Assembly (NCBI RefSeq): GCF_002260845.1
Contig: NZ_BEDT01000005.1
Span: forward strand, 62,001 to 126,000
Source of the DNA: Pseudolactococcus reticulitermitis
GTDB taxonomy: Bacteria; Bacillota; Bacilli; Lactobacillales; Streptococcaceae
Length of the DNA stretch: 64,000 nt
Direction of reading: 5' to 3'
The stretch's first letter is position 1. The number at the start of each line of letters is the position of its first letter. The translations under genes and the position numbers were made by a program. The notes beneath the pieces were generated by a model. That model was not told the DNA's origin. It searched no databases and saw nothing but the letters and a program-made list of their open reading frames with translations. This document shows positions 2,087 to 54,799 of the stretch, one piece after another.

Positions 2087-3325
2087 ATGACAGAAAATCA
2101 AATGTTAGCACGTTTTTTACGTTACGTTAAAATCAATACGCGCTCTGACGAAACAAGTTCAACAGTGCCAACGACGCAATCACAAGTAGATTTCACAGCC
2201 ATGTTGGCGGATGAAATGCGTGACATCGGCTTAGAAAATGTCCATTATTTAGAAAGCAATGGCTACGTCATTGGAACCATTCCAGCGACGACGGCTCAAC
2301 CTGTCCGTAAAATGGGCTTGATTGCGCACGTCGATACAGCCGATTTTAATGCGGAGGGTGTCAAGCCACAAATCATCGACAATTATGACGGCAAGCCTAT
2401 CCAACTTGGGACAAGTGGCTATGCCTTAGATGCGAAAGATTTTCCAAATCTGGCCAATTATACAGGTCAAACCCTGATTACAACTGATGGGACAACCTTG
2501 CTCGGGGCTGATGATAAGGCGGGGATTGCTGAAATCATGACAGCAGCCGATTTCTTAATCCAACACCCTGAGATTGAACATGGTGAAATTCGAGTTGGCT
2601 TTGGCCCAGATGAAGAGATTGGTACGGGTGCAGATTTATTTGATGTGGCCGATTTCGATGTTGATTTTGCTTACACCATCGATGGTGGTCCACTTGGTGA
2701 ATTGGAATATGAAACTTTTAACGCCGCATCAGCAGTCATCACGATTGCTGGGCGTAATGTTCACCCGGGAACAGCTAAAAATCAGATGATTAATGCCCTG
2801 CAGCTGGCTCATGATTTCCACAATCAATTACCAGAAACTGCGCGTCCTGAGCTGACTGACGGTCGTCAAGGTTTCTATCACTTGGCAAGCCTGACAGGTT
2901 CGCCAGAAGCAGCAACGATGACCTATATCATTCGCGACCATGATCGGCCGATTTTCGAGCAAATGAAATCAGACCTTCTGACGCTTGCTGAAAAAATGAA
3001 CGCGGGATATGACGAAAACCGTGTCAATGTGGTCTTGAAAGATCAATATTACAACATGGCTGAAGTGATTGAGAAAGATATGTCGATTGTCACGCTTGCC
3101 GAAACTGCCATGACCAATTTAGGGATTACGCCGAAAATTGAACCTGTTCGTGGTGGCACAGATGGCTCAAAAATTTCATTTATGGGCATTCCAACGCCGA
3201 ATATTTTTGCGGGTGGTGAAAATATGCACGGTCGCTTTGAATTTGTTAGCGTGCAGACGATGCAGGCAGCTGTTGATACAATTATTGAGATTGCGAAATT
3301 AAATGTCACGTCAACTCAAGCCTGA
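2087..3325 (+). CDS. pepT: Tripeptidase T
   Basis: PepT is a cytoplasmic zinc M20 aminopeptidase that removes the N-terminal residue from tripeptides during peptide use. The 412-residue protein shows the M20 metal ligands: HVDTAD near residue 80, DDKAG near 140 and PDEEIG near 175, with [12 protein letters not shown] in the lid domain and [13 protein letters not shown] near the C terminus. An upstream in-frame TTG would add 18 residues overlapping the rpmA terminator, so I chose the ATG six bases after ATGAGG. A perfect GGGTGG/CCACCC hairpin lies just upstream of the ribosome binding site and may affect translation. The gene seems monocistronic. Confidence 0.95.
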
Positions 3326-10732: not shown

Positions 10733-10785
<53 letters not shown>

Positions 10786-10882: not shown

Positions 10883-11725
10883 ATGTTAGGTTTCAGAGAT
10901 TTAGGTGCTCACTATCGAAAAGTGCGGGAGTCTAGGGGTTACACTATGGGAGATGTCACAAGTGATAATTTGAATAAATCACAGGTTTCAAGATTTGAAA
11001 ATGGGACACAAATGTTATTGTTAGACGGTTTTATGCATGCGATTAAAGGTTTAAATATGACTGCGAGCGAATTTTTCTTGACAATCGGAAATTTTGAGGG
11101 TGGTAATTTACATAGGTTTGGTGAAAAATTACAGTCTTATATTGTTACTCAAGATATAGAGGGATTGAAAGCCCTGATTCTACCAAAACCTAGAACAAAA
11201 GAGAAAAAGATTTTCAACATTTTGGCTAAGTGTGCAATCAAAGATTTGTCGGGAAGAAATGTGTTGACAGATGAGGAATGTCTGTTTATTGATAAACATT
11301 TAACAGATATTGAAGAATGGACAGTATTTGATGTTAATGTTTTTGCGATGGTTTTGGAAACTTTAGATATTAATTTAGTGTACCAACTTGGTTTAGATTT
11401 ATTGAAAAAAGATAAATTTTATAAAAAGTTACCTTACAATGCACATATCGTTAAGCGAACAGTTGTGAATCTATATGTTCATATGATTCTTCATCGAAAG
11501 TTTAGCTATGCAGATGTGTTTGAAAAGAAACTTGAAGTACTATTAAAACCAAATGATACAGTAGAGAGAATCGCTGTTTCTGTTTTTAAAAAAATTTCTT
11601 GCTATCGTCAAGATGAAAAATCAGAGATTTTGACGGAGATTGAAAGGGATATACAGTTTTTGAAAACTTTAGATGCATCAGCATTAGCGAGAAAAATTGA
11701 GATTCTTCTAGTCAACTATACCTAA
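10883..11725 (+). CDS. Rgg/GadR/MutR family transcription regulator
   Basis: The 280-residue protein has an N-terminal helix-turn-helix (residues about 8-65: HYRKVRESRGYTMGDV, NKSQVSRFENG) and a long all-helical C-terminal part, the Rgg layout. Rgg proteins are cytoplasmic receptors for short imported peptides and commonly switch on adjacent peptide or bacteriocin operons. It directly precedes the peptide gene and its modification operon, with its own terminator between, so it is the likely local activator. GGAGAAAG precedes the ATG. The sequence is visibly more AT-rich than the flanking core genes, suggesting transfer with the cluster. Confidence 0.9.
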   Translation: MLGFRDLGAHYRKVRESRGYTMGDVTSDNLNKSQVSRFENGTQMLLLDGFMHAIKGLNMTASEFFLTIGNFEGGNLHRFGEKLQSYIVTQDIEGLKALILPKPRTKEKKIFNILAKCAIKDLSGRNVLTDEECLFIDKHLTDIEEWTVFDVNVFAMVLETLDINLVYQLGLDLLKKDKFYKKLPYNAHIVKRTVVNLYVHMILHRKFSYADVFEKKLEVLLKPNDTVERIAVSVFKKISCYRQDEKSEILTEIERDIQFLKTLDASALARKIEILLVNYT

Positions 11726-11733
11726 ATAAAAAT

Positions 11734-11765
11734 ACCAGTAGCTTGTTAAAATACTGGTGTTTTGT
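11734..11765 (+). terminator. Terminator after Rgg gene
   Basis: ACCAGTA (11734-11740) pairs with TACTGGT (11752-11758), followed by GTTTTG. Confidence 0.65.
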
Positions 11766-11876
11766 TTAAATTAAAAATCTAAAATACCAAACAGATTAAG
11801 TAGTTTAAAAATCATGATTAGAATTCCTTTCCTATGATAGCTATATTTTATCAAATTTAAAAAGGGAAAACCTATC

Positions 11877-11926
11877 GTTGCTAACTTGCAACACTTTTTT
11901 GCTATAAACCGTTGCAAGTTAGCAAC
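11877..11926 (+). promoter_or_regulatory. 16-bp perfect inverted repeat, probable Rgg operator
   Basis: GTTGCTAACTTGCAAC (11877-11892) is repeated in exact inverse at 11911-11926 with 18 bases between. The repeat ends four bases before the expected -35 position of the peptide-gene promoter. Weaker outer pairing (CCTAT/ATAGG) extends it. Confidence 0.6.
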
Positions 11927-11952
11927 TTTTCATATAGGTGTGTTTGAAGTGA

Positions 11953-11958
11953 TATAAT
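11953..11958 (+). promoter_or_regulatory. -10 box of peptide operon, no good -35
   Basis: TATAAT has no recognisable -35 hexamer at the proper distance (TCATAT lies there). This suggests a promoter that needs an activator bound to the adjacent inverted repeat. Confidence 0.6.
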
Positions 11959-11962
11959 TATT

Positions 11963-11990
11963 TTGTAAGTTAGTTCGGAATGACTTACAA
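11963..11990 (+). other. 5' leader hairpin of peptide operon
   Basis: TTGTAAGT and ACTTACAA are perfect 8-base inverted arms around a 12-base loop at the expected 5' end of the transcript. It could stabilise the mRNA. Confidence 0.45.
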
Positions 11991-12101
11991 TAAACAAAGT
12001 AAGGATTAGATTTTAGTTTTATATGTATCTGATTCATTACTTATTTTTGAAACATTCATAGTTTAATGCGCAAGGTTATGATTGTCGGAAAGGAAAGAGC
12101 G

Positions 12102-12200
12102 ATGAAAACATCACATATTGTGAAGGTGAAAGTAAGCGCACCAATAGCGGTTACAACTTCAACTAAAATTGCCGCTATGGCGAGTGCTTCAGAACGTTAA
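12102..12200 (+). CDS. Candidate RiPP precursor peptide (32 aa)
   Basis: A 32-residue open frame starts MKTSHIVKVK and ends AAMASASER. It follows GGAAAGGAAAGAG at a good distance and is the first gene after the operator-linked promoter. The second half is rich in Thr, Ser, Ala and Ile (VTTSTKIAAM). Two in-frame ATGs at 12066 and 12078 would lengthen it to 44 or 40 residues, but their ribosome binding sites are absent or poorly spaced. It sits upstream of a ThiF/E1 enzyme, an exporter and a methyltransferase, so I infer a precursor of a modified peptide. A signalling role for Rgg is an alternative. It is too short for most gene finders. Confidence 0.6.
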   Translation: MKTSHIVKVKVSAPIAVTTSTKIAAMASASER

Positions 12201-12211
12201 TGTCAAACTTT

Positions 12212-12250
12212 TCCGCTTCGATTTATAAAAAGATTGAAGTGGATTTTTAT
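12212..12250 (+). terminator. Partial terminator/attenuator between peptide gene and enzymes
   Basis: TCCGCTTCGAT pairs with ATTGAAGTGGA (two G-U pairs), followed by TTTTTAT. In peptide operons such a leaky stop gives much precursor message and less enzyme message. Confidence 0.5.
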
Positions 12251-12268
12251 TATGCGTAAGGAGAATAC

Positions 12269-13330
12269 GTGAAAAATTTAATGACTAATAAGAATTTGCA
12301 AGTTCATTTAACTAAAGAGGAACATTTATTTATTTCTGTAGTCGGTACTGATGGTATCGAATATAAGGATAATATTGATTTTTATTTGAATTTATTAAAA
12401 ATAGTTCAAATAACCCCAGAAGTGAGTAACTATCAAAAATTATTAAGGGAAAATGGCTTTGATATTGATTTAGATGATCTGAACGATTTGCTACAATTGT
12501 GGCTTGATTTAAACATTTTAAAGTTACAAGAAGATTGTGAAAAGAAGTTAGTGGATTTAAATTTTGAAAAATATGATAGACAAATAAAAAATTTTGGAAC
12601 ATTACCGGGACTAACAGAACAAGACGGTATAGAATTTCAAAAGAAAATAAGCGCCTCATCTATCGGTGTTTTAGGGATTGGAGGGGTTGGTTCATATATT
12701 GTTCAAGGACTTGCTTCTATGGGGATAGGTAAATTAAAAATAGTTGATGGTGATATTATAGAGTTAAGTAACACTTCTAGGCAGATTTTGTATCGTGAGC
12801 ATGACATTGGAAAAAGCAAGGTGCTTGTAGCAAAAGAGCAAGTAGCTTTAATATCGCCTAAAACGGAGGTAGAAGTTTTAAATACTTTTATTGATTATGC
12901 AAATATAGATGAAGTGTCTCTCTTTTTTGAGGGTATTGATTTTTTGATATTGGCAGCTGATACACCAAGAGGTGAAATAGAATATATAACAGATAGACTT
13001 GCAGTTAGGAATCAAGTACCTTGGCTAACATTTGCTCCATTTGGATTTAGTAAAATATTTTTAGGTCCATTAATTATTCCGAATAAAACAAAAACTTTAA
13101 AGGAGTTAATTCCTCAGAATAATTTTATTGAAAATAGTAAATTGATAAAAGAAATTAATGATAATTTTTATTCTACAATTATGGATCCTTACAATGGAAT
13201 GGCAGCAAAAATGGCATTGATTGAAGTGGTTAAATTTATTACAGGATACGGAAATGTTTCAGTTATTAACAAAAGAATTTTAATTGATACTAGCACTTGG
13301 GAAATTGAGCATTATGATTTGGAAAATTGA
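12269..13330 (+). CDS. ThiF/E1-like adenylating enzyme (MccB-like layout)
   Basis: The 353 residues split into an N-terminal region of about 115 residues without E1 motifs, which could be a peptide-binding domain, and a ThiF/E1 adenylation domain. Motifs are YDRQIKNFG (102-110), the nucleotide loop GIGGVG (136-141), NTSRQILY (168-175) and DIGKSK (179-184), and ADTPRG near 230. There are no CxxC zinc pairs. MccB of microcin C and PaaA of pantocin A have this general plan and act on small ribosomal peptides. The substrate is probably the 32-residue peptide upstream. The start is GTG after AAGGAG. It overlaps the next gene by 17 bases. Confidence 0.85.
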   Translation: MKNLMTNKNLQVHLTKEEHLFISVVGTDGIEYKDNIDFYLNLLKIVQITPEVSNYQKLLRENGFDIDLDDLNDLLQLWLDLNILKLQEDCEKKLVDLNFEKYDRQIKNFGTLPGLTEQDGIEFQKKISASSIGVLGIGGVGSYIVQGLASMGIGKLKIVDGDIIELSNTSRQILYREHDIGKSKVLVAKEQVALISPKTEVEVLNTFIDYANIDEVSLFFEGIDFLILAADTPRGEIEYITDRLAVRNQVPWLTFAPFGFSKIFLGPLIIPNKTKTLKELIPQNNFIENSKLIKEINDNFYSTIMDPYNGMAAKMALIEVVKFITGYGNVSVINKRILIDTSTWEIEHYDLEN

Positions 13331-14312
13331 TTACAAAGAAGAAATAACAGCGGAATATGTATCATATCTCTATAACCTATTAAGAACGCATATAATGGGA
13401 ACGTATTCCGATGCTAAATTAATATTAATGCAAACCAAAGCCAAACAATTTACAAATGATTACTCTCTTAAAAAAACATTAGGGGAGTATTTAAGCTTTT
13501 TGATAACAACAGATTCGGATATAAAAACAATGAAAAGGGATTTGGATAAGTGTCTAATGGGTGAAGAAAAAATAAAAGAGCTGCAGGAATTTACAGAAAT
13601 AGGATATTTTCTGAACAAAAATAAAAATTTATTATTCATTGGTAAAGAGTTTGAGTTAGAATTTATGGAAATAACATTATCTAGAAAAATTAAAAATAAT
13701 TTATTAATTATCGGACAACCTGGTACAGGAAAAACGACTTTGGTTTCACAATATAATAAGCAAACCGATAAACGCATATTCGTAGTAGAAATGGGGAAAA
13801 TCATTTCAAATACAAAATATCGTGGAGAATTTGAGAATAAACTCATTAAGCTGATAGAATATTCTCGGGAAGAACGCATCATTCTATTTATAGACGAAAT
13901 CCATATTATATTTTCAAGTGGAAAAGTAGATGGGGGGCTTTCAGCGGCAGATATTTTAAAACCTTACTTGACTGATTCTGAGTTAATTATTATTGGTACA
14001 ACAACGATAGAAGAATTTAAGATTATGATGTCTGATAAGGCAATTGAAAGAAGATTTAATTTGCTAACTCTTGGTAACATGGAGAATTCTGTTTTACGAA
14101 ATTTGTATCAAGAGTTATTATCATCATTTGGAATTACCACTCTTACTTTAGAAAATTTTGAGGATATTCAAAAAGCTTTAGATAAAGTATCAAATCGAAA
14201 TTATCCAGATAAATTAATTGATTTTATTGATTTATATGAAGCTATAGAAAAATTTAATGGTAGAACAACGATAAACGAAGTAATTCAAAGAGGTTTCTAT
14301 GAATTCAAATAA
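13314..14312 (+). CDS. Single-ring ClpA/ClpB D1-like AAA+ ATPase
   Basis: The 332-residue protein has an unfamiliar helical N-terminal region (1-105) and one AAA+ module close to the first ring of ClpB/ClpC. It has GQPGTGKT Walker A (134-141), the pore-loop KYRGEF (168-173), FIDEIH Walker B (192-197), GTTTIEEF sensor 1 (228-235), ERRF arginine finger (245-248) and YPDKLIDFID near 300. There is no second ring, no ClpP-docking loop and no Clp-N repeat that I can see. I chose the ATG at 13314 because the upstream in-frame start lies deep inside the ThiF gene. It overlaps both neighbours, so it is a cotranslated part of the cluster; its job (remodelling the enzyme complex, or self-protection) is unknown. 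Confidence 0.8.
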   Translation: MIWKIDYKEEITAEYVSYLYNLLRTHIMGTYSDAKLILMQTKAKQFTNDYSLKKTLGEYLSFLITTDSDIKTMKRDLDKCLMGEEKIKELQEFTEIGYFLNKNKNLLFIGKEFELEFMEITLSRKIKNNLLIIGQPGTGKTTLVSQYNKQTDKRIFVVEMGKIISNTKYRGEFENKLIKLIEYSREERIILFIDEIHIIFSSGKVDGGLSAADILKPYLTDSELIIIGTTTIEEFKIMMSDKAIERRFNLLTLGNMENSVLRNLYQELLSSFGITTLTLENFEDIQKALDKVSNRNYPDKLIDFIDLYEAIEKFNGRTTINEVIQRGFYEFK

Positions 14313-15498
14313 AAAACTATCTATGAAAATTGCAATAACTTATTTACTTTTTGTTGCTTTATTAACTCTATTTAGATCTGGCGTATCAGGCATATTATCT
14401 CTTTACTATGTGGAAAAGGGTATGGAAAATCATGCTATCAGTAGTATAAAATCATTTCAAAATATTGGTATTTTAGTAGGTTTACTTCCTGCGGGTTTTT
14501 TAGCAGATAGAATTGGCAGATTAAAAGTATTGATGTTTTCTAGCTGGGTAATGGCAACGAGTTTTGTGGTGATGTTAATATCTAATTCTCAATTAAATTT
14601 TTCTTTAGCTGAAATGTTGTATGGTATTGGATTGGCGTTGAATTCGGGTATATTGATTGCTTATATTAGTGATTTACAATTGGAAAAAAATGTTTTTTTA
14701 TCTAATCAAACAATAGGTCGTAGAACAACGGTGCTAAATATTTCAACATTAATCGGAGGGAATATTGGAACCTTTTTGTTTGCTAGAAATTATAATTTAC
14801 CACTGTATTTTTCGATTACTGGTTTATTTTTATATCCGATAATCATTTTGGGGTGGACTCACTTAATGGAATTTAAGGATAATAGCTCAATTAATTCTTT
14901 AAAAAAAACGAACTTTTATAAAAAAGATAAATTTTCAATTAATAAGCTATTGTTACATGTTTCAATTATCAATTTAATTTTTGAGATAGGAATTCAATTC
15001 ATCATGGTTTATTGGTCGATATATTTTGTTCAAAAGTTAAATTTTAATTTATCAATTATATATACTTTAATGTTACTTTCAGTTATTTTTGGAAATGAAA
15101 TTTACGTTTTAGGAAGTAAAAAGCGTTCTAATCATATGCTTGTTGTAATATCAGCTTTTTTGATGACAATATCAACTATTTTGATTGGTATACTTGAAAA
15201 TAAAATTGGAAGTTTGATATTTTTTATTTTATTTGAATTATGTACAGGGATTTTTACAAATGCAGTTCATGTTTTACAAAACCAAGCACTTTTAAATCAA
15301 GAGAAAAAATCAAAAACATTATCTAGTATAGATTTTTTCACAGAGATTATTATTATAATTTCTTTGCAGTTTATTAACGTATCAATAGAATTTTTAGGTG
15401 TTAAAATAATGTTTGTTATAAGTGGCTGTTTATTTGCTACGATAATAGTGAAAGAAAAATTAAACTTAAAGGGTAGGAAAATAAAAAATGGTATATGA
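14299..15498 (+). CDS. MFS transporter, probable peptide-product exporter
   Basis: The 399 residues form about 12 hydrophobic segments with the MFS loop motif GFLADRIGRLKVLMF near residue 73. Codon use and base composition are as AT-rich as the rest of the cluster. It overlaps the AAA+ gene by 14 bases and the methyltransferase gene by 11, so it is translationally coupled. In microcin C operons the exporter MccC is also an MFS protein next to the ThiF enzyme, which supports export of the finished product and perhaps producer self-protection. Confidence 0.85.
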   Translation: MNSNKKLSMKIAITYLLFVALLTLFRSGVSGILSLYYVEKGMENHAISSIKSFQNIGILVGLLPAGFLADRIGRLKVLMFSSWVMATSFVVMLISNSQLNFSLAEMLYGIGLALNSGILIAYISDLQLEKNVFLSNQTIGRRTTVLNISTLIGGNIGTFLFARNYNLPLYFSITGLFLYPIIILGWTHLMEFKDNSSINSLKKTNFYKKDKFSINKLLLHVSIINLIFEIGIQFIMVYWSIYFVQKLNFNLSIIYTLMLLSVIFGNEIYVLGSKKRSNHMLVVISAFLMTISTILIGILENKIGSLIFFILFELCTGIFTNAVHVLQNQALLNQEKKSKTLSSIDFFTEIIIIISLQFINVSIEFLGVKIMFVISGCLFATIIVKEKLNLKGRKIKNGI

Positions 15499-16366
15499 TG
15501 AAAATAGTAAGTATTTGGCAAAAGATACAGCTGAAAATTATGAAAAATATTTACCGAAATATTATTTTTTTGATGATGAAATTAGAGAGTATGTTGAGGA
15601 AACTGTTGTAGTTGAAAATAAACTTTCTAGAGAGAGTTTTAATTCGGTATTGGAGTTTGGGGTTGGTTCTGGTCGTATAACAGAATTATTGATGCCTATA
15701 TCAAAAAAATATAAAGGTATTGATATAAGTGATAGCATGATAAAGAGGATTAATCGACGTTTTCCTGTAGAAAAAAGTCAATTTGAAGTTTTTGATATTA
15801 ATGAATTCATTAATCAAAATATAGACGGTTTGAGACAATATGATTTTATTGGGAGTTATTGGGCTTTTAATTACGCTATTTTAAGTTTTTTCGAGTATCG
15901 GGATTTATCTACTGGAAAAACATATGCAATAGACAATTTAACTGAGGCAGAAGAGAAGGCAAAAGAACAAATAACAAAATTATTTTCTAATTTAAGTAAA
16001 GGAACAAAATTTTTGTTTCTTTACTTTGATGCGTATTCCGTTGAACAATCATATGTGACAAGCGTTTTAGAACAAAGTTTACCATTTCCTTATAATGACA
16101 GAGGATTTACTTTCAGGTTATTTAAAAAAATTTTACATCAGTTAGAGAGCGTTAAGTTTGTTCATGAACATAAAAGTGGATTTGTTATTTTAGATGATGA
16201 TGAACATTTGATAGAGTACTTTAAAAATTTACATTTGAAAGGATATTTAGATAGTGATGAATCTATTGAATTGCTGATGAATACTTTTAGAGCTTATAAG
16301 TATGAAGATGGACATTATGAAATTCCTGCAGGAATGAATATTATTTCTGGTAATATCACGATATAA
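15488..16366 (+). CDS. Class I SAM-dependent methyltransferase
   Basis: The 292-residue protein has the SAM-binding motif I VLEFGVGSGRITELL (about 54-68) followed by the acidic GIDISDSMIKRI strand end (about 76-87), the Rossmann methyltransferase pattern. The C-terminal part is not familiar to me. As last gene of the coupled operon it probably methylates the peptide product or the adenylated intermediate, but neither substrate nor target atom can be read from the sequence. Confidence 0.8.
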   Translation: MVYDENSKYLAKDTAENYEKYLPKYYFFDDEIREYVEETVVVENKLSRESFNSVLEFGVGSGRITELLMPISKKYKGIDISDSMIKRINRRFPVEKSQFEVFDINEFINQNIDGLRQYDFIGSYWAFNYAILSFFEYRDLSTGKTYAIDNLTEAEEKAKEQITKLFSNLSKGTKFLFLYFDAYSVEQSYVTSVLEQSLPFPYNDRGFTFRLFKKILHQLESVKFVHEHKSGFVILDDDEHLIEYFKNLHLKGYLDSDESIELLMNTFRAYKYEDGHYEIPAGMNIISGNITI

Positions 16367-51881: not shown

Positions 51882-52595
51882 ATGACATTAATAGCGTTAA
51901 TTGTTATGATTTTGGTAATAGGAAGTCCAATAGTATTTATGAGTTTTATAAGTTTAGAGTTACGTGCACGGCTTTCAACCAAAGAATATCTAGTCATTAT
52001 ATTTATTCTTTTCCTGTTAATTATAAATCTTATAGGAGCTTTTTATTACTATGACAATCTTTATAATGATACGGGAGGAGACTTCCAAGGGATTACTATA
52101 TGGTTAGATGTACTTTTAATTATTTCTTTTATAATCTCACAAATTGTAGTTATCTCAAAAAATTCAAAGGATAAAGAAGATGTACAACAACTAGATTTTA
52201 AAAAAGTATTTATTTTTTCAATCGCTTTTTTATCATTGATAACATTTGCCAATGTTAGGGGTATTCAAGAACATCAAAAAAGTGAAATGTGGGGAATTAT
52301 TTACCATGAGAAAGAAATTGTCAAGATGGTTACTGACAAATATCCTGATATTAAGAAACTAGAATTTGAAAAATTAAAGTATGTTCCAACAAACCCTTTT
52401 ATGTCTGAGCCTAAAATCTCACTAATTGTTACTTTTACAGATAATACAATAAAAAAAATAAAATTTAATCCTAAAAATTTTGAGTATACTGATGATGTGG
52501 AAGAACTTTTAAAACATAATATTAACACAAATATTACAAAAGATATTGAAGTTAGATACTCAGATGAAAAGGTTAAAAAAGTGAAAATTAAATGA
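51882..52595 (+). CDS. Membrane protein of the type VII effector locus, unknown
   Basis: The 237-residue protein has about four hydrophobic segments in the first 125 residues (MTLIALIVMILVIGSPIVFM, IIFILFLLIINLIGAFYY, VLLIISFIISQIVVI, VFIFSIAFLSLITFA) and a charged soluble C-terminal domain with KYPDIKKLEFEKLKY near 155. That segment resembles the FPDIKEIRF of the next two proteins, so all three may share a domain and form an immunity group. The stop overlaps the next start (ATGA). Confidence 0.65.
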   Translation: MTLIALIVMILVIGSPIVFMSFISLELRARLSTKEYLVIIFILFLLIINLIGAFYYYDNLYNDTGGDFQGITIWLDVLLIISFIISQIVVISKNSKDKEDVQQLDFKKVFIFSIAFLSLITFANVRGIQEHQKSEMWGIIYHEKEIVKMVTDKYPDIKKLEFEKLKYVPTNPFMSEPKISLIVTFTDNTIKKIKFNPKNFEYTDDVEELLKHNINTNITKDIEVRYSDEKVKKVKIK

Positions 52596-53044
52596 GTAAG
52601 CGAAGGAAGATAATTATAAGGATTGTCATTGGTTTATTGGTAGTTGTTGGAATTGTAGGAGGAAAAATGTATATGGCTAAACAAACGCATAATCAAAGAA
52701 TAGCTGAAATGGCGAATAAATTGAGATACGAGGGGTTTGAAACAGAAATTGCGAAAAAATTAAAGGAAGAATTTCCTGATATTAAAGAAATCAGATTTGA
52801 TGATACTGCAAAAAATAGGAAAATGGGATTTTATTGGTCAACATTTCAGATTATTGCAGATTGGACAGAAAATCAGCCTGAAAGTGAGAGACATTCAGTG
52901 ATAAATTATAATAATATTCAAGATATACAAACGCATGTATATTCGATGATTTTGTCAAAATCTATGTATAAATATCAGGGGACAGGTAAAACAGTGACAC
53001 CAGTATTAGTTACATATTCAACTGGTAAAAATAAGGAGGTTTAA
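52592..53044 (+). CDS. Membrane-anchored protein, candidate effector immunity (copy 1)
   Basis: The 150 residues have an N-terminal anchor (IIIRIVIGLLVVVGIVGG) and a soluble domain with EMANKLRYEGFETEIAKKL and FPDIKEIRFDDT. The first 75 residues are almost identical to the protein at 53128, while the C-terminal half is diverged. That pattern, duplication with divergence next to a toxin, is usual for immunity genes. It is followed by a ribosome binding site and a broken head of an effector gene. Confidence 0.7.
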   Translation: MSKRRKIIIRIVIGLLVVVGIVGGKMYMAKQTHNQRIAEMANKLRYEGFETEIAKKLKEEFPDIKEIRFDDTAKNRKMGFYWSTFQIIADWTENQPESERHSVINYNNIQDIQTHVYSMILSKSMYKYQGTGKTVTPVLVTYSTGKNKEV

Positions 53045-53045
53045 A

Positions 53046-53117
53046 ATGGCGACAGAACAAGAGCTTGTAGATTTGAACGGTATAGTTTATGGCGTTGACC
53101 ATAATTATAAGGAATAG
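53046..53117 (+). pseudogene. Head of a second effector gene, truncated at 23 codons
   Basis: With AAGGAGG upstream, it encodes MATEQELVDLNGIVYGVDHN plus YKE and then a stop. This aligns with the first 23 residues of the effector at 53585 (MVTDKQLKELNELVYGVDHN). It is what remains of an effector that once followed the first immunity-like gene. Confidence 0.75.
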
Positions 53118-53127
53118 GAAAAATTGA

Positions 53128-53583
53128 ATGAGTAAACGGAAGAAAATAATTATAAGGATTGTCATTGGTTTATTGGTAGTTGTCGGAATTATAGGAGGAA
53201 AAATGTATATGGCTAAACAAACGCATAATCAAAGAGTAGCTGAAATGGCGAATAAATTGAGATACGAGGGATTTGAAACAGAGATTGCGAAAAAATTAAA
53301 GGAAGAATTTCCTGATATTAAAGAAATCAGGTTTGAGGGTACAAGCAAAAATAGTAAAACTGGAAGTTACTGGTCCACATTCTATATTATAGCCGACTGG
53401 ACTAAAGGACAACCAGAATCAGAATATTATTCAGATTTTACTGGGTACGGCTCTATTCAAGATATTCAAACTAGTGGTTATTCAATGGGTATAACAAAAT
53501 TGATGGATAAATATGATGAAACGGGAAAGACGTTAAATTCAGTATTAGTCACGTATTCAACTGGAAAGAAAAAGGAAATTTAA
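53128..53583 (+). CDS. Membrane-anchored protein, candidate effector immunity (copy 2)
   Basis: The 151-residue paralogue of the 52592 protein shares the anchor and the region to FPDIKEIRF. It then differs (GTSKNSKTGSYWSTFYIIADW in substance) and ends LVTYSTGKKKEI. It lies two bases before the intact lipase-like effector, so it is the best candidate for the cognate immunity protein, placed to protect from a toxin that acts at the membrane. The family is not recognised with certainty. Confidence 0.7.
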   Translation: MSKRKKIIIRIVIGLLVVVGIIGGKMYMAKQTHNQRVAEMANKLRYEGFETEIAKKLKEEFPDIKEIRFEGTSKNSKTGSYWSTFYIIADWTKGQPESEYYSDFTGYGSIQDIQTSGYSMGITKLMDKYDETGKTLNSVLVTYSTGKKKEI

Positions 53584-53584
53584 C

Positions 53585-54799
53585 ATGGTAACAGATAAAC
53601 AACTTAAAGAATTAAATGAACTGGTATACGGAGTTGACCATAATTATATAGAAAAAGGGAAACCTTTTGTAGATGTTGATGAAGGTTTTGAGAGAAAGAT
53701 TGGAAATCAAAAATTTCAAGTTATTTCAACCTCCAACAATGATAAATCAGGAACTATCATTCTTCACGAGCCACAGCCTAATGGTGGTTATAAAGATGTT
53801 CCTTATACTGTAAAACCGAATGATGGCTTTTCAGGGATGGCAGTTGCCCCAATCAATAATGGTGTGGTTGATTATGGTAATGTGACAGTAATCGCTGCTG
53901 CCACAAACCCAACCTCTCCAAATGATTTAGGTGGTGCAGCTGCAGCTGTTCCAGGGTTATCTTTACAATATGATACCGCTGAACAATATCTATTAAAGCT
54001 AATGAAAGAACACCCTGACTGGCAGATTAACCAATTATCAGGTTATTCTCAAAGTGCTTATATGTTGAAAATAGGTGCTAAATATCACATTCCCACAACC
54101 GTTTTTCACGGTTGGTTTAACTATAATACTTTATCCAAGGAAGAACGGGATTATATGAACGCTCATATGGCGCAATATATTAACTATCGAGCGCATGAGG
54201 AGGAAGTCGGTGGTAAGCTCGTCGTCAGTCATGATGCTAAGAATACCGCTGGTTCTGTTTATTATATAGGTAACGCTAATAGTCATTTATTGACTTCTTT
54301 CAAATTTGATAAAGACGGCAACATCAAATTTAATATTGAGGATTCAAAAGGCGAGGATAAAATATCTAATTTACAAGGTAGTATCGCAAAAAGTTCAGGA
54401 GGGAAGAAGATTGCTTTACGGACTGAACTTATTGCCACAATTTCAGAGCACGCCAAAGACCTTGCCCAAGGCTATGAATCTGCCATAAAGGCCGAACTTG
54501 AGAAAGCTGAACTTGAGATTAAAACGATTGTTCAAGAAATCAATCAAGGTGCTTATGAGATTCAAAATTATTTGCAAGGTTGGGAAGTTGATAAGTTGAT
54601 TCAAAATTATCAAGAATCTGATTTCTGGGATGATGGTCTTGAATCATCAATCAAACAAGAGGTTAAAAAATATAAAAATAGTCTCTATGACTTCTCAGAT
54701 ACGCTAACAGTAGTTTCAAGAAGAATAGCTGATTACGATAGTCAAGAAGGTGCTAGATTGTTTAAACAAGATATTACAGCTCGTGGAAAGGTAAGATAA
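53585..54799 (+). CDS. Type VII-secreted lipase-like toxin with reverse domain order (TslA-like)
   Basis: The 404 residues have an N-terminal alpha/beta-hydrolase-like domain (about 1-250) with a nucleophile elbow LSGYSQSAYMLKIG (Ser near 156) followed by PTTVFHGWFNYNTL, and a C-terminal all-helical charged region (about 285-404, AELEKAELEIKTIVQEIN, VVSRRIADYDSQEGARLF). Most LXG effectors carry the secretion helix bundle first; S. aureus TslA carries lipase first and helices last, with two small helper proteins downstream, as here. Phospholipase activity against competitors is the inference. No secretion apparatus gene is in the window. Confidence 0.7.
   Translation: MVTDKQLKELNELVYGVDHNYIEKGKPFVDVDEGFERKIGNQKFQVISTSNNDKSGTIILHEPQPNGGYKDVPYTVKPNDGFSGMAVAPINNGVVDYGNVTVIAAATNPTSPNDLGGAAAAVPGLSLQYDTAEQYLLKLMKEHPDWQINQLSGYSQSAYMLKIGAKYHIPTTVFHGWFNYNTLSKEERDYMNAHMAQYINYRAHEEEVGGKLVVSHDAKNTAGSVYYIGNANSHLLTSFKFDKDGNIKFNIEDSKGEDKISNLQGSIAKSSGGKKIALRTELIATISEHAKDLAQGYESAIKAELEKAELEIKTIVQEINQGAYEIQNYLQGWEVDKLIQNYQESDFWDDGLESSIKQEVKKYKNSLYDFSDTLTVVSRRIADYDSQEGARLFKQDITARGKVR

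Follow-up and report, generated by a model that had tools for sequence, protein, structure and literature searches.

Adenylation of peptides by ThiF/E1-like enzymes carrying a recognition element (RRE) for ribosomally synthesized and post-translationally modified peptides (RiPPs) is already known, as are rgg genes near ThiF genes, leaderless peptides with candidate modified-peptide targets, and ClpA homologs in microcin C (McC)-type clusters. According to one study, all precursors found beside mccB homologs end in Asn, which is needed for the N-P bond (PMC6495379), and a 2025 review presents the ClpA homologs as possible degraders of toxic precursors (PMC12250964). Another report states that 11 of 21 S. 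thermophilus rgg regions contain radical S-adenosylmethionine (SAM) or ThiF genes (PMC12445099), and modified-peptide clusters are among the candidate targets given for short leaderless peptides in a further paper (PMC10518010). Here we describe a related locus in Pseudolactococcus reticulitermitis (assembly GCF_002260845.1, contig NZ_BEDT01000005.1, positions 62,001 to 126,000), a stretch of 64,000 nucleotides hereafter called the window. Its block 10883..16366 holds genes for an Rgg regulator, a 32-aa peptide, a ThiF/E1 enzyme, an AAA+ ATPase, a major facilitator superfamily (MFS) transporter and a methyltransferase. We consider it probable that this is an RRE-ThiF RiPP cluster under a quorum switch, in which ThiF has an AAA+ protein as its dedicated partner.

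The arrangement of the six genes, as given in the initial annotation of the window, was confirmed in coordinates, frames and domains, and so were the overlaps computed from the gene ends: 17 nt between ThiF and AAA+, 14 nt between AAA+ and MFS, and 11 nt between MFS and methyltransferase. The block is flanked by a DHA2-type MFS gene on one side and tyrS on the other, and its GC content is 25-31% in 1-kb segments from 11 to 16 kb, against mostly 40-46% in the neighboring segments (35% at 18-19 kb).

The 32-aa reading starts at 12102, preceded by GGAAAGGAAAG; the listing of open reading frames (ORFs) gives a 44-aa reading from 12066 because the first start was taken. On plasmid pE73 (L017) of Exiguobacterium alkaliphilum, a species of Bacillales, an unannotated peptide gene occupies the same place upstream of the enzymes, and its product is identical to that of the window at 23 of 32 residues. 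Between the two genes (n = 33 codons), 11 codons are identical, 13 differ synonymously and nine non-synonymously, and the changes affect 18 of the 33 third positions versus 11 of the 66 first and second positions (hypergeometric P = 1.5e-4, for two sequences only). A chance reading was rejected on the strength of this conservation with mostly silent codon changes; judged from the sequence comparison, the peptide gene is real and belongs with the enzymes. The two peptides share MKTSxxVKVxVSAP in the N-terminal half and TKIAAMAxAxER at the C-terminal end, and the window peptide contains no Cys, Trp, Asn, Tyr or Phe.

The enzymes of pE73 follow the gene order of the window, with identities of 61% (ThiF), 47% (AAA+), 57% (MFS) and 56% (methyltransferase). 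Six loci with ThiF and AAA+ genes were assembled in all, namely the window, L017, a Priestia plasmid (L018), Pantoea ananatis pOC5aB (L019), Bifidobacterium indicum (L034) and the Streptococcaceae genome G037 (L021), so that the group spans Bacillota, Pseudomonadota and Actinomycetota. The AAA+ neighbors were sought within flanks of ~1.5 to 8 kb, less at contig ends. Each of the six loci has an MFS gene and a short ORF, picked by eye, that follows a Shine-Dalgarno sequence and encodes 31-32 aa (23 aa in L021); the peptides are MKTSHIVKVKVSAPIAVTTSTKIAAMASASER; MKTSNLVKVNVSAPVAVSAQTKIAAMAMAAER; MKNSVKQGLQIKKAGAVHTGAMVSVTVNSVTP; MTVKVASRIKCNKVQTVTMANVKAVVESLAN; MEKTLISAKTVQAQNTSEAEDTAARAATVFA; MIITKVKVSSKVSERVVSMHQGN. 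Thus homologous loci lacking a peptide gene, the outcome that the initial annotation had named as speaking against its proposal, were not encountered, and the co-occurrence of the ThiF/AAA+ pair with a short peptide ORF extended to all six. Its methyltransferase, proposed as a fixed part of the set, was found in two loci only (the window and L017); in Bifidobacterium a P450 gene follows the AAA+ gene instead. The proposed new branch of ThiF peptide clusters is supported as to a genuine precursor, an AAA+ protein, an MFS transporter and a ThiF enzyme that belongs to neither the McC-like nor the pantocin-like branches sampled. In five of the six loci the peptide gene is followed by a hairpin, with z-scores between -3.3 and -4.2 in L017, L018, L019 and L034.

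To place the ThiF enzyme, we built a tree of 63 rows comprising the window, ORFs of at least 320 aa from 98 distinct ThiF ORFs minus ten named ones, three shorter rows and the N-terminal piece of L021. The window groups with L017 and L034 (support 100/99) and then with L019 (89/85); L018 pairs with L020 (99/94), and these six rows form a set supported at 87/90, while the L021 piece was unplaced. Mapped on this tree, the AAA+ label needs three changes, and none of 500 shuffles was as low. Two groups are separate from the window: one in which Nocardiopsis rows stand with L147, a plasmid locus of E. coli ATCC 25922 (99/92), and a pantocin-type one of L139, L140 and L035 (100/99). The ThiF-MFS-methyltransferase locus L147 is one that we take, from its gene order, to be mcc.

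That comparison bears on the possibility that the cluster makes a microcin C-type Trojan horse, in which ThiF would be an MccB placing a nucleotide on the C-terminus, the transporter an MccC, the methyltransferase an enzyme like MccD (an aminocarboxypropyl transferase), and the AAA+ protein a ClpA-like immunity factor. The order peptide-ThiF-(AAA+)-MFS-methyltransferase mirrors that of L147, MccB is among the best sequence and fold matches of the window enzyme, ClpA homologs do occur in McC-type clusters according to the review cited above (PMC12250964), and the peptides of Pantoea (L019) and L021 end in Asn. However, those of the window and L017 end in Arg, that of L034 in Ala and that of L018 in Pro, against the Asn given as obligatory in PMC6495379; the L147 clade excludes the window enzyme; and the methyltransferase aligned by hhalign with that of L147 at a probability of 26.6 over 42 columns covering the generic SAM motif only, and on such a match it was not accepted as a clear MccD. 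We therefore regard a microcin C-type product as quite improbable.

The modeled fold of the ThiF enzyme suggests an RRE-E1 architecture. Its AlphaFold2 model (predicted local distance difference test, pLDDT, 89.4) has strands and then three helices before residue 90, and the best fold matches were PaaA (5ff5), at the top, and MccB (3h5a). Among the 50 fold entries listed, which represent some fold families only so that absence from them means nothing, PaaA and MccB alone align from residue 2 to residues 352-353. Since this full-length alignment includes the N-terminal domain, it fits an RRE fused to an E1 domain, and residues ~1-90 are predicted from the model to be the RRE. Among the residues for ATP and Mg, R171, Q172 and K184 do not vary across 20 ThiF proteins and D231 hardly does. 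PMC12250964 assigns the same roles in EnfB to three residues (Arg, Lys and Asp), to which these may correspond.

An E1-like enzyme, an AAA+ protein and a methyltransferase side by side could also suggest a defense or ubiquitin-like conjugation island in which the peptide is incidental. The ThiF enzyme matches the E1 part of E1-E2 models in PADLOC (best 1.4e-14), and there are matches of the AAA+ protein to IetA in the P-loop region (4.1e-13) and of the methyltransferase to mad2 (9.4e-8). However, each match covers one domain of a longer model. The domain search detected no E2 domain, a part of the anti-phage E1-E2 systems, in any of the six window proteins; the peptide has been conserved between genera, and the N-domain of ThiF is predicted to be RRE-like. 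A defense island was rejected on the single-domain PADLOC matches and the missing E2 domain, and we hold this explanation to be highly improbable.

The second member of the pair is the AAA+ protein. That of the window starts at the ATG at 13314, inside a longer ORF listed from 13284, and scores 2.4e-37 against the ClpA model TIGR02639, well under the cut-off of that model; it is ~36% identical over ~214 residues to plasmid ClpB proteins. It carries Walker A and B motifs, a YRG pore loop, sensor 1 and an RRF finger. These elements are kept across the loci, with the pore loop reading FRG instead of YRG in Pantoea (by eye from the alignment). In five of the six loci the protein is a stand-alone single module of 258-343 aa; the exception is the 651-aa protein of Priestia, whose second half has no Walker A motif. 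The ThiF and AAA+ genes overlap by 17 nt in the window, 11 nt in L017, 23 nt in L019 and ~20 nt in L021 (with an uncertain start codon); in L034 a gap of 14 nt separates them.

This protein might instead serve immunity or quality control, by unfolding or removing toxic intermediates, and be no maturation partner of ThiF. Such a role has been suggested for the ClpA homologs of McC-type clusters in PMC12250964, and the substrate-threading pore loop is retained. The AAA+ link is not wholly new, because those homologs are already mentioned there; the initial annotation knew of no described cluster with this set. Two observations oppose an immunity role: the AAA+ gene overlaps ThiF in four of the six loci, and lies on either side of it across loci, which suits a partner of ThiF; and the protein is a single D1-type module without a second ring. 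In Clp motors the ClpP-docking loop belongs to the second ring. We see the immunity role as a possible but doubtful explanation, and a dedicated partner of ThiF as the better fit.

The coordinates of the cluster are collected in the following table; the 14-aa minus-strand ORF, the back-to-back promoters and the hairpin ahead of ThiF are additions to the initial annotation.

Table 1. Features of the cluster in the window of 64,000 nucleotides (strand ".", none assigned).
Feature	Position	Strand	Evidence or remark
Rgg-family peptide-sensing regulator, 280 aa	10883..11725	+	Rgg_C PF21259 2.6e-28, TIGR01716 2.1e-33
Candidate signal peptide gene, 14 aa	11772..11816	-	MIFKLLNLFGILDF, hydrophobic, convergent with rgg, Shine-Dalgarno AAGGA
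-10-like box TAAAAT, leftward promoter	11845..11850	-	26 nt from left operator
Operator 1 (candidate)	11877..11892	.	GTTGCTAACTTGCAAC, GTTGC-N6-GCAAC
Operator 2 (candidate)	11911..11926	.	GTTGCAAGTTAGCAAC, inverse of operator 1
-10 box TATAAT, rightward (biosynthetic) promoter	11953..11958	+	26 nt from right operator
Precursor peptide gene	12102..12200	+	MKTSHIVKVKVSAPIAVTTSTKIAAMASASER, 32 aa; conserved in L017 with mostly silent changes
Terminator-like hairpin (putative attenuator) between precursor and ThiF	12212..12243	+	fold z=-3.8
ThiF/E1-like adenylyltransferase, 353 aa	12269 (GTG)..13330	+	PF00899 5.6e-42; predicted RRE + E1 domain
Single AAA+ module, ClpC/ClpB D1 type, 332 aa	13314..14312	+	AAA PF00004 7.6e-15
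MFS transporter, presumed exporter, 399 aa	14299..15498	+	PF07690 (MFS_1) 3.8e-18
Class I SAM-dependent methyltransferase, 292 aa	15488..16366	+	PF13649 (Methyltransf_25) 3.1e-6; 56% identical to L017 copy

Upstream of the biosynthetic genes lies a candidate two-way switch. The C-terminal domain of the regulator scores above the cut-offs of both Rgg models, and its relatives of solved structure include MutR-family and RopB regulators (RopB match 2.9e-5). The operator-like repeat that the initial annotation had noted is borne out, GTTGC-N6-GCAAC having two matches in the window versus 0.11 expected. The promoter scan as a whole gave 38 sites versus 36.0 in shuffles, i.e., no excess. Rgg orthologs that are 98% (G044, L180) and 94% (G009, L181) identical stand at the same chromosomal site and share its operators, and both loci encode the 14-aa peptide in identical or almost identical form. 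A different cassette follows rgg there, made up of an ORF of 20-21 aa, a membrane protein and a distant ThiF that has 321 aa in G044 and is split in G009; by eye, the membrane protein is an MFS transporter in L180, L181, L191 and L221, that of L181 being without a Pfam match. The flanking DHA2 gene is present in 11 genomes, eight of which have an empty site with a DHA2-tyrS gap of 24 to ~400 nt. With eight empty sites and another cassette in two sisters, this is therefore a cassette position, at which the switch can stand without the ThiF+AAA+ cassette. The idea of Rgg as the switch of this cluster is hence favored by the extra short ORF, operators and promoters, with the reservation that the same switch is also present at this site in genomes that lack that cassette.

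The architecture recurs in the genus. Rgg relatives were found at 89 places, of which 29 were counted, namely the better-scoring ones of the genus and a single one from outside it (G023); L221 was added later and lies outside this count. Inverted 13-bp arms with a gap of 22-24 nt within 400 nt of rgg occur in 21 of the 29 loci versus 1.3 expected, by a criterion fixed after the loci were seen, and a convergent hydrophobic ORF of 10-16 aa occurs in 15 versus 0.08 expected from shuffles. The exact paired GTTGC operator occurs five times in 12 genomes, never more than 300 nt away from an rgg gene or fragment, and the reversed control gave none. Behind the related Rggs stand ThiF genes (L180; L191, with a shortened Rgg and one dyad; L221, with a split Rgg), radical SAM genes (L197, L203), a B12-binding protein whose radical SAM match is below cut-off (L190), a 19-aa ORF together with a MATE exporter (L193) and, with Pfam support, lactococcin 972 (L202, where the short ORF is present and the arms are absent by the criterion used).

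These neighbors also speak to whether the modified peptide is a signal and not an antimicrobial. The products of GRC and enterofaecin are suggested to be quorum effectors in PMC12250964, and the cluster adjoins an Rgg switch. Yet related Rggs precede the lactococcin 972 bacteriocin and radical SAM genes, and the role of pheromone would already be filled by the candidate 14-aa ORF. We think a signaling product unlikely, and favor an antimicrobial RiPP.

Several further features of these Rgg regions were seen. A seven-base tandem repeat, CAGTAGG, is present in 7.6 perfect copies at window 10733-10785, ~100 nt upstream of rgg, and could change rgg expression by slipped-strand events. Directly after the rightward -10 box, a palindromic stem TTGTAAGT...ACTTACAA occupies window 11963-11990, and other Rgg loci, inspected by eye, have a similar stretch behind their operators. 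In L195, L201, L206 and L214 the Rgg is followed by a peptide of 106-140 aa, a protein of 557-680 aa and an ABC-ATPase-like protein of 202-208 aa; this layout is lactococcin-972-like, as in L202, and the four longer peptides had no Pfam match. L200 has the same layout with a peptide of 22-23 aa. L210 encodes, at 3169-3306, a 45-aa Cys-rich peptide (GCCCSTCTCTCSSTC) without a Pfam match, followed by ABC-transporter-like genes, and its Rgg is accompanied by the short ORF and paired arms. In L025 (5917-8815, Streptococcaceae), a 602-aa ThiF protein that falls in the L147 clade is divergent from an Rgg relative.

A number of observations weigh against a quorum-switched cluster with a dedicated AAA+ partner. 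The peptides beyond the window and L017 were picked by eye and are too diverged for confident alignment, that of L021 (23 aa) being the weakest, and the hairpin of L021 is not significant (z=0.2). The Priestia ThiF gene is divergent from its AAA+ gene; L020, the nearest ThiF relative of L018, has no AAA+ gene within ~8 kb on either side; and AAA+ carriers formed a single clade in none of 200 bootstrap trees. The structure prediction of the AAA+ protein was unusable (pLDDT 46.9), and the RRE assignment depends on a structure model. As for the switch, no relative of the window Rgg was found in the examined flanks of the other five ThiF+AAA+ loci, so the initial annotation's inclusion of Rgg does not extend to the family. 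By the criteria used, 14 of the 29 Rgg loci lack the signal ORF and eight lack the paired arms; the counted arms of L190 differ from its operator pair, L202 has none and L191 has a single dyad. With the arm criterion chosen once the loci were known and several Rgg loci being close relatives, these counts are not independent.

We propose the following sequence of events. The 14-aa peptide, or a trimmed form of it, would be exported, re-enter the cell and bind Rgg, which would act on the two operators to fire both promoters, leftward for more signal and rightward for the cassette. Most transcripts may end at the hairpin, giving precursor in excess over enzyme. The RRE of ThiF would bind the N-terminal half of the precursor, and the E1 domain would adenylate a carboxylate in the conserved C-terminal stretch, either the C-terminal Arg32 or the Glu31 side chain. 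Since Cys, Trp and Asn are absent from the peptide, the acyl-AMP would have to be taken by a Lys, Thr or Ser or by an outside nucleophile, for example to form a lactam from Lys22 to the C-terminus. The AAA+ ring, whose synthesis would go along with that of ThiF, most likely threads or pulls the modified peptide off ThiF, or presents it; this role is proposed because the D1 pore loop is kept and there is no second ring for ClpP docking. The methyltransferase would add a final group, and the MFS transporter would export a product that is probably active against competitors. Both the identity of the product and the role of the motor are deduced from sequence.

More tentatively, the cluster may represent a new RiPP class, marked by the pairing of an E1-like enzyme with a threading motor, a stand-alone AAA+ protein used in modification, i.e., in loading, releasing or proof-reading the adenylated peptide, and which in this genus is one of several interchangeable weapons behind a shared bidirectional Rgg/short-peptide switch. 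If so, it would be a prokaryotic pairing of E1 and AAA+ for small-molecule synthesis and not for protein turnover. The locus raises two questions: what task a Clp-type motor has in peptide natural product synthesis, and which bond an E1-like enzyme makes when its peptide lacks the nucleophiles of the described ThiF pathways. The paired operator with a convergent ORF of 10-16 aa is, moreover, a search tool that led to several uncharacterized peptide cassettes in the genus, and with it clusters can be sought from the regulator instead of from the enzymes. In the literature searched we found no description of a ThiF+AAA+ group whose precursor, of 31-32 aa, is free of McC features and, for Lactococcus-like genera, none of a symmetric paired-operator switch with differing cassettes at one site.

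The ThiF of the cassette was matched in 16 of 196 genomes of the family (E 1e-20, own genome included), among which an AAA+ neighbor was seen only in L003/L021 besides the window; in two of 398 genomes of the class (E 1e-30, own included); and, at E 1e-45, in three of 151 genomes around Bifidobacterium and nine of 299 around Bacillus, where the new ThiF genomes had no AAA+ match within ~1.5 kb. A profile search of 394 Enterobacterales genomes at E 1e-45 gave none, in a sample without a positive control. Genome contigs were scanned with two short patterns, and of the 229 matches the best 80 were kept, so that close relatives could be missed. None of 54 pattern matches on viral contigs was confirmed, and phage records gave partial ThiF matches only (10 records). 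The cassette with its methyltransferase is rare: the methyltransferase profile found only the own genome among 319 genomes of the class (E 1e-25), the cassette with this methyltransferase is present in one of 12 genomes of the genus, that of the window, and 72,556 plasmid records yielded two methyltransferase matches, pE73 (56%) and Nocardia farcinica (25%). Two further elements lie within these loci: a second, distant ThiF gene on pE73 (L119, NZ_CP073103.1 50960-51970), ~9 kb from the cassette and far from the window ThiF in the tree, and a 419-aa ORF inside the ThiF gene of the G037 locus (L021 9811-11070), by eye transposase-like and presumably an insertion sequence, for which reason the ThiF halves were treated separately. 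Elsewhere in the window, a second low-GC block at 51882-54799 encodes a tandem pair of near-identical 150-aa proteins and a 404-aa protein, which by eye we take to resemble a secreted effector with companion proteins.

Compared with known systems, the cluster has the general makeup of ThiF-like (RRE-E1) RiPP clusters, with a ThiF-family E1 domain that has its ATP/Mg residues and, beside it, a short precursor gene and a transporter, but its peptide fits none of the precursor types of microcin C, pantocin, GRC, enterofaecin and IndF. With microcin C7 it shares a predicted RRE+E1 adenylyltransferase for a short ribosomal peptide, an MFS exporter, a class I SAM enzyme and a similar gene order; it differs in a 32-aa precursor ending in Arg instead of a heptapeptide ending in Asn, in the clade of its ThiF, in the extra AAA+ protein and in having no MccE- or MccF-like genes in the operon. 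Pantocin A (PaaA/PaaP) resembles it in the best fold match and a precursor of ~30 aa. However, the pantocin ThiF belongs to a separate clade (with L140, annotated as pantocin A family), the domain search detected no 2-oxoglutarate-dependent oxygenase among the six window proteins, and the Glu-Glu-Asn core of pantocin A does not occur in the window peptide. The GRC, enterofaecin (EnfB) and IndF RiPPs of streptococci and enterococci are similar in that ThiF adenylates a peptide carboxylate for intramolecular capture, and GRC is likewise linked to quorum-sensing operons. The window cluster has neither the radical SAM enzymes and the C-terminal Cys for the thiolactone of GRC nor the Trp-containing C-terminal core of enterofaecin and IndF (WWIVI, NWYFI), and has an AAA+ protein and a methyltransferase instead. 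Its AAA+ protein shares with the D1 module of ClpA/ClpC the Walker A/B motifs, YRG pore loop, sensor 1 and arginine finger, but stands alone and is linked to ThiF. The switch, finally, is like the Rgg/short hydrophobic peptide and RopB/leaderless communication peptide switches in its cytosolic Rgg receptor, adjacent tiny hydrophobic peptide, palindromic operator and modified-peptide clusters among the targets. The peptides of RopB-clan switches are leaderless, hydrophobic and mostly 8-10 aa long; the candidate here is a hydrophobic ORF of 14 aa, and the window Rgg matches RopB at only 2.9e-5. The switch differs from both kinds in that the 14-aa ORF is convergent with rgg, in two inverted operators placed symmetrically to two promoters, and in the different cassettes that it accompanies at one chromosomal site.

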